A stretch of 64,000 nucleotides of DNA from Chromatiales bacterium. GTDB taxonomy: Bacteria > Pseudomonadota > Gammaproteobacteria > JAGRGH01. Positions 26,044 to 29,388 of this stretch are shown in pieces. Position 1 is the stretch's first letter. Every line of letters starts with the position of its first letter. The position numbers and the translations under genes are program-made. The stretch lies in contig JAGRGH010000032.1 of NCBI GenBank assembly GCA_020445605.1, forward strand, positions 1 to 64,000, in the 5' to 3' direction. The notes beneath the pieces were generated by a model that saw only the letters and a program-made list of their open reading frames with translations, was not told the DNA's origin and made no database searches.

Positions 26044-27689
26044 GCCGGACCCGGCAGGCCCTGCGCCTGTGGCACATCCATCGCGTGCTGCTCCGTCACG
26101 GGCTCGACGAGATCATCCTCGCGCTGCACCTGTTCCGGCCGCTGCGGTTTCTCGACTGGCTGAGCCCGAGCCGCTGGCTCGGCCGACGCAAGGCACCGCG
26201 CGCCGAACGCATCCGCCGCGCGCTCGAGGATCTCGGGCCGATCTTCGTGAAGGCCGGACAGATCGTCTCGACCCGCCGTGATCTGATCCCGCTGGACATC
26301 GCCGACGAACTCGCGAAGCTTCAGGACCGCGTGCCACCGTTCCCGGGCACGGATGCCAGACGCATCGTGGAAACTGCGCTCGGCCGGCCGGTTGCGGAAC
26401 TGTATGCCGAGTTCGACCTGACGCCGCTGGCCTCGGCATCGGTCGCCCAGGTCCACACCGCGCGCCTGCCGAGCGGTGAAGCGGTCGTCGTCAAGGTACT
26501 GCGCGAGAACATCGAGCCGGTCATCCGCCGCGACATCGGCCTGCTCTACAGCATCGCGCGGCTCGCGCAGCGATTCTCGGCCGATGCCCGCAGACTGCGG
26601 CCAATCGAGGTCGTCGCGGAGATCGAAAAGACCATCCTTGACGAACTCGATCTCATGCGCGAGGCCGCAAACGCCGCCCTGCTCAAGCGCAACTTCTCGA
26701 CCTCGGACCTGCTCCATGTGCCGGCCGTGTACTGGTCCCATACGCGCCGCGACGTGATGACCATGGAACGCATCGAGGGCATTCCGATCCGCGACATCGC
26801 CGCATTGCGCGCGGTCGGCGTGGACTTCAAGCGCCTGTCGGAACGCGGCGTGGAGATCTTTTTCACGCAGGTGTTCCGCGACAATTTCTTTCACGCGGAC
26901 ATGCACCCGGGCAACATCTTTGTCACGGCCGACGGCCAGTACCGCGCCGTGGACTTCGGCATCATGGGCACGCTGACGACCGAGGACCAGCACTACCTGG
27001 CCGGCAATATTCTGGCGTTTTTCAATCGCGACTACCGTCGCGTCGCCGAGCTTCACGTGGAATCCGGCTGGGTGCCGCGTGGCACGCGCATCGACGAATT
27101 CGAATCGGCGATTCGCACGGTGTCCGAACCGATCTTCCAGCGTCCGCTCAAAGAGATTTCATTCGGGCAGTTTCTGGTGAACCTGTTCGCCACGGCGCGG
27201 CGTTTCGACATGGAGATCCAGCCGCAGCTCGTGCTGCTGCAAAAGACGCTGCTGAACATCGAGGGACTCGGCCGGCAGCTGTATCCGGAACTGGATCTGT
27301 GGCAGACGGCCAAGCCGTTTCTGGAGCGCTGGACGGCCGCGCAGTTCGGGCCGCGTGCGTTCCTGCGCCGGCTGCGCACGGAACTGCCAAAGTGGTCCGA
27401 GACACTGCCCTTGCTGCCGACGCTGTTGCACGAGGTCGCCACGCAGGCCCGCGACGGACGGCTGGACATCGGTGTCAGCGAACACGATCGTGCGGCGGAT
27501 CAGGCGCTGGCACGACGGGGCAACCGCCGCGTCGTTACCGCGATCGTCGCGAGTGGATTATTGGGTGGCGGTCTGGCGTTGTTGTTGTCAGCGCCGCAGT
27601 TGCTGACGCCGACCGTTCAGACCGCGCTCGGTGCGACAGCCGCAACGCTCGCGCTAACCCTGTACGCGAAGCTGCTCTGGCGCGACTGA
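26040..27689 (+). CDS. ubiB: Ubiquinone biosynthesis regulatory kinase-like protein
   Basis: A 549-residue member of the ABC1/ADCK/UbiB atypical kinase family, which assists ubiquinone biosynthesis probably through ATPase activity. The invariant KxGQ motif appears as [16 protein letters not shown]. Further features are an Ala-rich loop ([10 protein letters not shown]) in place of a Gly-rich loop, VVVKVLR, the catalytic HADMHPGN and the metal-binding VDFGIMG. Two membrane helices end the protein (about 500-545). GTG start at 26040 overlapping the ubiJ stop. It overlaps the convergent desaturase gene by 36 bases at the 3' end. Confidence 0.96.
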
Positions 27690-28523
27690 TCCCGCATCGG
27701 CCGCGAGGCCGGCATCAATCCTCTTCTGGTTCCACACGAACGGCAGGCGCAGCATGCGCAGCAGCCCATGCTCGGTGCGCCCGGTATAGACCTCGAGTCC
27801 AATCGGCAGATCGGCATACTCGTGCAACGGCCGTTCGGCATAGGTGCCGAACCAGCGATCCCAGAACGAAAACAGCACGCCATAGTTTGAATTGGTCTCG
27901 CGGCGAATCCGCGAGTGATGCAGGCGATGCAGGTACGGCGTGACCAGCACCTTCGTCAGCGGGCGCTCGATCGCGTGTGGAAGCGCGAGATTTCCGTGCC
28001 GGAGCAGATTCCAGCTCATCGCGACGACCTTATAGATCAACACGGTCACGACATCGCACCCCAGCAGCGTGATGAGGGTCAGATCGGCTGCGAGTGAAAC
28101 CGCGACATCCAGCGGGTGATGCCGGTAGGTCGTCGAAAAGTCCACCTCGGTGTCGTTGTGATGCAGGACATGCAGGCGCCACCACCACGCTAGGTTATGG
28201 CTCAACCAGTGTGTGACCCAGGCGGCGAGATCGAGCAGGACAAACCCGGCAACAAAGGCCGGACCCGGAGCCAGCGGCAGCCAGTTCAGCAAGCCGAACT
28301 GCGAGACTTCGACCAGGTGTGCGACGGCAAGCACCAGCAGGGGATTCAGCCAGCGGAACACCAGCCCGCCGATGACCAGCAGCGACAGGTTGGCAACCCA
28401 GCGCCGAACCATGTCCACGCGCTCGCGGTGCAGGGGTCGCAGAAGCTCCCAGGCCAGCACCACAACGAATCCGGCCATGAACACGGATGCGTACCAGCCT
28501 TTGCCGGGAGCGATCCAATCCAT
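27654..28523 (-). CDS. Sterol desaturase / fatty acid hydroxylase family protein
   Basis: A 289-residue integral membrane di-iron enzyme of the fatty acid hydroxylase superfamily. About four membrane helices and the histidine clusters HWLSHN, HVLHHND, YRHHP and HRLHHSR that ligate two irons are present in the usual order. Such enzymes hydroxylate or desaturate lipids with oxygen. The substrate is not determinable. ATG at 28523. The 3' end overlaps ubiB in the opposite direction by 36 bases. Confidence 0.9.
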
Positions 28524-28694: not shown

Positions 28695-28880
28695 CTAGCG
28701 ACGCCGATTTCTCAGGAAACTGAGCCCGATCAGCAGCGCCGCGAGTGCGGCAAGACCGAGCGCAAGCGGATTGTCAGAGGGCACGGACGTCGCCGGCGGT
28801 GGAACAATAACATCCGCAGCCCGTACCGACCCGCAGACGAGCGTGGCCAGTACGAGCAGCGGAGAGCGGGAATTTCTCAT
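28695..28880 (-). CDS. Micro-protein A: signal peptide plus C-terminal sorting-like tail
   Basis: A 61-residue protein made of an N-terminal signal peptide (to about residue 21, GSVRA), a short Pro-rich linker (VIVPPPATS), and a C-terminal tail VPSDNPLAL, one membrane helix and NRRR. There is almost no room for a functional ectodomain. The tripartite tail (short motif, helix, basic end) resembles exosortase or rhombosortase recognition signals, and shares SVPxDNPLAL and the LRxRRR end with micro-protein B encoded 145 bases upstream on the same strand. A long palindrome lies between the two genes. ATG at 28880. No processing enzyme is seen in the window. Confidence 0.7.
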   Translation of the reverse strand: MRNSRSPLLVLATLVCGSVRAADVIVPPPATSVPSDNPLALGLAALAALLIGLSFLRNRRR

Positions 28881-28903
28881 GCGAGGACTCCGGTACTTTG
28901 CCT

Positions 28904-28990
28904 AGGGCCTGTTCACACTGCGCTCACAGCGCCTTGTTGGCCACAAAAACGGCCACCGTCGCTGCGTCACGCGCAGTGTGAGCAGGCCCT
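28904..28990. repeat. 87-bp palindromic element between the twin micro-protein genes
   Basis: AGGGCCTGTTCACACTGCGC (28904-28923) is the near-perfect inverse of 28971-28990 (19 of 20 bases). The 47 bases between contain further nested pairing (CAGCG with CGCTG, and GTTGGCC with GGCCACC). A shorter copy of the same arm sequence occurs at 41361-41399. It is a dispersed palindrome of the MITE or REP type. In RNA it would form a long hairpin between the two minus-strand micro-protein genes. Confidence 0.75.
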
Positions 28991-29024
28991 GGTACGTAAC
29001 CGCGCGACCGGCGGTCCTCAGTTC

Positions 29025-29201
29025 CTACTTGCGGCGCGAGCGCAGGAACACACCGCCGAGCAGAGCCGCGGCAGCGCCCAGCAGGACCAGCGCCAGCGGA
29101 TTGTCGACCGGCACCGAGTTCGGAACGAAATCGCCCGCGATACCCATGCCCGGAATCAGCGCGACCATCGTGAACCAACCAGCCTTGAAAGACGAACGCA
29201 T
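29025..29201 (-). CDS. Micro-protein B: twin of micro-protein A
   Basis: A 58-residue protein with ATG at 29201, TAG at 29025-29027 and a strong GGAGGGGG ribosome site directly upstream. It has an N-terminal hydrophobic signal-like segment (residues 5-23, ending GIAG), a short spacer FVPNS, then VPVDNPLAL, a hydrophobic Ala/Leu/Gly helix and RSRRK. The DNPLAL motif, helix and basic end align with micro-protein A. Like it, the protein is little more than secretion and sorting signals. Role unknown. A midcut/exosortase-like substrate is the nearest comparison, made from memory. Confidence 0.72.
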   Translation of the reverse strand: MRSSFKAGWFTMVALIPGMGIAGDFVPNSVPVDNPLALVLLGAAAALLGGVFLRSRRK

Positions 29202-29388
29202 ACCCCCTCCCGTCAGAATGACCCAAAAAATGGCGCCAACAATCTAGAGCACCGCGCCATCGTTGCGCAATATCCGCCGCGGGCCACCTCTGGTCGCCGA
29301 TCAAGTCACCCCGGTTTTCCGGGGCAACGGTGCCCAGCGCCGCATACCACTCTTACTTGATCAGAATTGCCTCAGAGGCGTTCGGGCG

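Follow-up and report, generated by a model that had tools for sequence, protein, structure and literature searches.

Introduction

The closest described relatives of the genes reported here are substrates of exosortase H (XrtH). The IPTL-CTERM proteins (TIGR04174/TIGR04177) carry a tripartite C-terminal signal, and the midcut-by-XrtH proteins (NF033207) bear a signal peptide, a short linker, a VP-type signal, a helix and a basic cluster within their first ~64 residues, together with a C-terminal part of ~110 residues. Very short exosortase targets are represented by the PExPT-CTERM protein targeted by XrtJ (TIGR04200, a 57-residue model), and small two-gene cassettes that include a sorting substrate are known for MrtJ with a JDVT-CTERM protein and for rhombosortase with a single GlyGly-CTERM protein (PMC11980579, PMC3237569). 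That exosortase processing adds a new moiety is suggested in a passage of PMC11980579. Lipid-related enzymes have been seen at exosortase loci before, in the case of the N-acyl amino acid synthases (Craig et al. 2011, mentioned in a passage of PMC4897644), and one member of the FA_hydroxylase superfamily, OlsE (NF052566), acts on a membrane lipid, whose ornithine head group it hydroxylates (PMC3972451).

The locus described here resembles these systems in some respects and departs from them in others. Its microproteins follow the midcut-by-XrtH plan, true members of which coexist in the same genome, but they end after the basic cluster and lack the long C-terminal part. As in IPTL-CTERM proteins the signal is tripartite, with the motif reading VPALDSWGL in paralogues on contig C50 and APALDEWGL in a second genome, and exosortase H is present; on the other hand, the microproteins have no ectodomain, VPxDNPLAL replaces IPTLxxWG in the copies studied here, and a hydroxylase gene adjoins. 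The PExPT-CTERM protein, although likewise very short, has another motif and another exosortase. The MrtJ and rhombosortase cassettes pair the substrate with its sorting protease; the cassette described here pairs it with a lipid-type oxygenase, and the protease gene lies at another place in the genome. The N-acyl amino acid synthases are acyltransferases, not hydroxylases, and the passage of PMC4897644 that concerns them describes no microprotein partner. Finally, the enzyme at this locus shares the fold family and histidine boxes of OlsE, its best NCBIfam match, but scores far under the equivalog cut-off (73.5 bits against 475) and is paired with exosortase-type microproteins. Sorting-signal proteins, XrtH substrates and FA_hydroxylases are all known kinds; in a partial collection of open-licence papers we found no description of microproteins made of signal and tail only and paired with hydroxylases, no prior account of the pairing itself, and no paper that treats 'sterol desaturase' jointly with 'exosortase'.

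Results

The window, that is, the whole 64,000-nucleotide stretch of DNA that was analysed, contains two adjacent open reading frames of 61 and 58 residues (Table 1), which a first-pass annotation had described as a signal peptide, a short spacer and a common tail, and hence as secretion-plus-sorting microproteins without an ectodomain. The translations bear out this description: in each the signal peptide ends near an A-x-A/AG site, a linker of ~6-10 residues separates it from the tail, and the tails share the consensus SVP[SV]DNPLAL-helix-R[NS]RR[RK]. In an AlphaFold model the C-terminal helix (residues 35-57) is predicted with confidence, and an N-terminal helix less strongly. The likeness of the tails, which had been taken as conserved, held up as well. 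The twins align with 26 of 62 columns identical (BLASTP E = 1e-5), and their alignment score of 89 was reached in none of 5000 shuffles that kept the signal-peptide/linker/helix/tail plan (shuffled mean 38, maximum 72), which rules out chance similarity, and the plan recurs in paralogues. Spurious reading frames were ruled out by the well-placed Shine-Dalgarno sites, by pN below pS (0.43 vs 0.66, near saturation) and by the paralogues, and judged from their sequences the twins are almost certainly real translated genes. PHROGs gave no match, and tblastn found no plasmid copies.

Table 1. Features of the window (plain coordinates) and microprotein clusters elsewhere in the genome (contig handles).
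Feature	Location	Strand	Size	Remarks
Microprotein A	29025..29201	-	58 aa	signal peptide + linker DFVPNS + tail SVPVDNPLAL-helix-RSRRK
Microprotein B	28695..28880	-	61 aa	signal peptide + linker DVIVPPPAT + tail SVPSDNPLAL-helix-RNRRR
Exosortase-type sorting tail of A	29028..29117	-	residues 29-58	from translation; common to paralogues
Exosortase-type sorting tail of B	28698..28787	-	residues 32-61	from translation; common to paralogues
Shine-Dalgarno-like GGGAGGGGGT	29202..29211	-		5' of microprotein A ATG
Shine-Dalgarno-like GGAG	28888..28891	-		5' of microprotein B (GGAG-N7-ATG)
Inverted-repeat element	28904..28990	.	87 nt	between the twins; dispersed repeat, about ten copies in genome
FA_hydroxylase/sterol-desaturase family membrane enzyme	27654..28523	-	289 aa	171 nt downstream of microprotein B; PF04116 87.7 bits, cut-off 31
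XrtH-type microprotein	C57		56 aa
XrtH-type microprotein	C40:46921		57 aa	single cluster without hydroxylase nearby
XrtH-type microprotein	C51		57 aa
XrtH-type microprotein	C63:23945		59 aa
XrtH-type microproteins, three in tandem	C50		55, 60, 61 aa	tail VPALDSWGL
XrtH-type microproteins, two in tandem	C63:110381		55, 54 aa
XrtH-type microprotein	C49		59 aa
PEP-CTERM-type microproteins, four in tandem	C6:46391-47199		49-53 aa	tails VSEPNILGLAGAGALAAVLAWRIRRRR or near it; directly 5' of hydroxylase gene

When the whole genome (3.36 Mb, 63 contigs) was searched with a profile of the twins, and later with a profile of all copies, at least 16 microproteins of one plan were recovered in nine clusters, the window twins included, several of them tandem. 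Nearly all copies have a typical signal-peptide cleavage site (AxA/AG), and in every paralogue pair tested pN was lower than pS, most clearly among the C6 paralogues (0.20 vs 0.60). The linker varies among the copies and, not being conserved, points to no particular peptide product.

The inverted repeat between the twins was considered as a specific part of the locus and rejected, because it is a dispersed repeat. Nine further copies (C30:72749, C63:13412, C45:170, C44:53887, C3:103192, C37:136141, C47:39817, C50:86976 and C63:23769) match most of the window copy at 89-97% identity, and two copies lie inside microprotein cassettes, one in the window and one between microgene and hydroxylase at C63:23769-23888.

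Co-occurrence of sorting enzymes had been named as a check on the idea that the tails are processed, and the genome does encode them. Exosortase H, at C49:81320, scored 194.5 bits (cut-off 86) and its translation shows the conserved catalytic residues, with Cys in EAGCNG, Arg in LNLVRV and His in EWAHLY; the exosortase H-associated membrane protein (XrtH_assoc; 171.6 bits, cut-off 35) is encoded directly after it, and an exosortase A fused to EpsI is encoded at C59 (331.6 bits, cut-off 208). Seven full-size IPTL-CTERM proteins score above cut-off, as do at least two genuine midcut-by-XrtH proteins (NCBIfam), one belonging to a tandem array of midcut-by-XrtH-like proteins at C40:129668-132638 and the other a related copy at C31:63500. 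The further suggestion of an enzyme dedicated to the DNPLAL region did not fare as well: we see no sign of one. DNPLAL is a single variant among the tails of this family, in which VPALDSWGL and VSEPNILGL occur as well, and XrtH also has ordinary full-size substrates.

On the IPTL-CTERM model TIGR04174 (cut-off 20.5 bits) the 61-mer scored 9.9 and the 58-mer was not listed, the C50 paralogues scored 15.4 and 14.8, and the copies in the second genome scored 20.3 and 17.2. On the midcut-by-XrtH model NF033207 (cut-off 45 bits) the twins, in which the C-terminal part is absent, scored 16.4 and 15.9, matching positions 8-64 of 175 with E = 0.007 and 0.01, under the cut-off, and the C57 microprotein matched the first 64 positions with E = 2.4e-6, also under the cut-off. 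Because all these scores lie under the cut-offs, the microproteins are called XrtH-type by plan and resemblance, not by curated model; the tripartite plan of motif, helix and basic end behind an N-terminal signal peptide is found in the twins in sequence, in alignment and in the modelled helix (35-57). At C6, one copy passes the PEP-CTERM model TIGR02595 with 19.3 bits (cut-off 16), the other copies giving a weak match or none. The LPXTG model TIGR01167 is exceeded by the 58-mer (17.7 bits, cut-off 15.9) through the helix and basic end alone, and an LPXTG cell-wall anchor was ruled out, the sequence having no LPXTG motif. The microproteins are probably processed by an exosortase.

The main finding, which had escaped the first-pass annotation, concerns the hydroxylase gene downstream of the twins. 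A whole-genome search for PF04116 (FA_hydroxylase) found nine genes, and microprotein genes adjoin eight of them (window, C57, C63:23k, C63:111k, C51, C49, C6 and C50). At seven of these loci the microgene is the next gene upstream of the hydroxylase on the same strand, with gaps of 29-187 nt (171, 61, 187, 29, 30, 29 and 43), and at C50 the hydroxylase is convergent with the microgenes, one beta-propeller gene lying between. The ninth hydroxylase, at C32:142318, follows an RND-pump gene and is without a microgene; conversely, eight of the nine microprotein clusters have a hydroxylase, the exception being C40:46921. This hydroxylase-less microprotein comes after a 772-aa membrane protein without a Pfam match, the two genes together spanning C40:46918-49491.

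The microprotein searches were made without use of the hydroxylases, and under a model with nine hydroxylases in ~3200 genes (an assumed gene number) and the next same-strand gene drawn at random, the probability that at least seven of nine clusters would be paired by chance is ~5e-17. The genes flanking the cassettes differ at every locus and are otherwise unrelated, housekeeping genes, and so the cassette itself, one to four exosortase-tail microproteins and then an FA_hydroxylase-family membrane enzyme, is the repeated unit. On the evidence of gene order, this microprotein-hydroxylase cassette is present at eight loci, and a functional link between microproteins and hydroxylase is very likely.

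All nine hydroxylases keep the invariant family histidines (histidine boxes), and their pairwise identity is 30-46%. The AlphaFold model of the window enzyme has a pLDDT of 81, with Scs7p as the best solved fold, a weak match (E = 0.59). In a tree of the nine copies and 34 hydroxylases from other species, the eight paired enzymes form a divergent group on one side of a branch with support 88/98, and the unpaired enzyme falls within the widespread subfamily and shares 68% identity with a protein of Thiobacillus; the inner order is unsure because of long branches. The C6 and C50 hydroxylases are mutual closest matches (43%), and their microproteins have PEP-type and XrtH-type tails, respectively. 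That the tails differ though the hydroxylases are closest argues that it is the status of exosortase substrate that is conserved, and we read the difference as an exchange of one sorting signal for another within an unchanged cassette plan. A mirror tree of microprotein and hydroxylase distances gave a weak correlation (r = 0.21, p = 0.18; without C6, r = 0.41, p = 0.045), which we do not take as proof of co-evolution.

In the set of genomes searched, the genome studied is the sole representative of its genus, family and order. Among 370 genomes of the class, exosortase H was above cut-off in 14, and microproteins of this type were found in this genome and one other, the XrtH-positive G292, so that the tail which the first-pass annotation had proposed to seek beyond the twins proved to be conserved in paralogues and in one other genome. 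In the G292 family, of which six genomes including G292 were searched, none of the other five has them. With a microprotein detector that recovers every copy of this genome and the two of G292, no microprotein was found at 80 hydroxylase loci of other species among the matches listed, mostly of the widespread subfamily, nor at 14 hydroxylase loci of XrtH-positive genomes. A widespread hydroxylase-microprotein pairing was thus not found, and the claim is therefore limited to this lineage. G292 has two tandem XrtH-type microproteins (VQAPALDEWGL...; pN 0.25 vs pS 0.52) 18 nt upstream of an oxidoreductase operon with a gluconate-2-dehydrogenase subunit 3-like gene and a GMC oxidoreductase gene, microproteins and operon genes together spanning L104:3094-5806. 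This arrangement hints at other oxidoreductase partners for such microproteins.

Discussion

The recurrent coupling of minimal exosortase-type substrates with a lipid-oxidising enzyme directs attention to a lipid, and it suggests that protein sorting and lipid modification are connected in a new way. To our knowledge, the acceptor to which bacterial exosortases attach their substrates is unsettled. The explanation that we favour, and to which we give about an even chance, is a lineage-specific cassette whose microprotein is processed by an exosortase to a product that the hydroxylase modifies on its lipid side. The signal peptide would insert the microprotein in the inner membrane; exosortase H would recognise and cut its tail (VPxDNPLAL or VPALxxWGL, helix, basic end), with exosortase A taking this part for the PEP-type C6 copies. 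The remaining stub of ~5-15 residues would then be moved by the exosortase onto a membrane lipid or another acceptor and would carry a new C-terminal moiety, as is proposed for exosortases in part of PMC11980579. The neighbouring hydroxylase would oxidise the lipid part of the stub product, or its acceptor lipid, and the outcome would be either a small lipopeptide or a patch of membrane that bears the modification. The step in which the hydroxylase acts on the lipid side of the same product is tentative, and we put it somewhat short of even.

Several observations count against this explanation: the window tails are under the IPTL-CTERM and midcut cut-offs, the linker is not conserved, the C50 hydroxylase is convergent and one gene away, C40:46921 has no hydroxylase, the pairing was unseen at the hydroxylase loci scanned in other genomes, the G292 copies stand beside a GMC oxidoreductase operon, and the mirror tree is weak. 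The main rival, which has in our view a modest chance of being right, is that the microprotein, left uncut or existing only transiently, forms a two-helix hairpin and serves the hydroxylase as a subunit or regulator (an assembly factor or activity switch), with exosortase cleavage, if any, representing turnover. The tight same-strand linkage to a membrane enzyme, the modelled helices and a linker that varies as though unimportant would all suit such a role, but if the tail made a specific helix contact, it would not be expected to alternate between XrtH-type and PEP-type among cassettes with related hydroxylases, and the AxA/AG cleavage site in nearly all copies also speaks against it.

It is improbable that cassette duplication alone accounts for the pairing, an ancestral arrangement that arose by chance having been copied eight times without a functional link. 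The paired hydroxylases do lie on one side of a well-supported branch, and two cassettes contain the dispersed repeat; yet enzymes that are only 30-46% identical still adjoin an intact microgene under purifying selection, where unlinked copies would be expected to have been lost or separated. Similarly improbable in our estimation is the reading as decoys or titrators of exosortase H or A that tune the sorting of large substrates, which accords with microproteins that carry little beyond a recognition signal and with one exosortase facing many substrates, but leaves the hydroxylase neighbours at eight loci unexplained; among the roles first envisaged (decoy, regulator or precursor) it is the worst explanation of the pairing. 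The short reading frames can hardly be leaders or upstream ORFs that control the hydroxylase gene through the act of translation, whatever the peptide, a notion that their small size and position just upstream of the enzyme gene invite, given the conserved signal peptide and sorting tail, the tandem copies, pN below pS and the absence of any Rfam element in the window.

Under the favoured explanation of exosortase processing with lipid modification, a bolder form can be formulated, which we consider unlikely: that the cassettes encode a new class of exosortase-dependent lipopeptides, in which exosortase H or A would free a stub of ~5-15 residues or anchor it to a lipid, and a dedicated FA_hydroxylase-family enzyme would hydroxylate the lipid of the stub, in eight diversified versions. 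Were this true, exosortases would gain a biosynthetic role beside protein display. The cassettes provide eight natural test cases with substrates of fewer than 65 residues, and they illustrate that exosortase-type substrates can be genes below the usual annotation size. Another small XrtH-type substrate was noted in genome G031 (L054:1151-1405), where an 84-residue IPTL-type protein (HRLPTLSEWGMSVF...) is encoded near the exosortase H gene.
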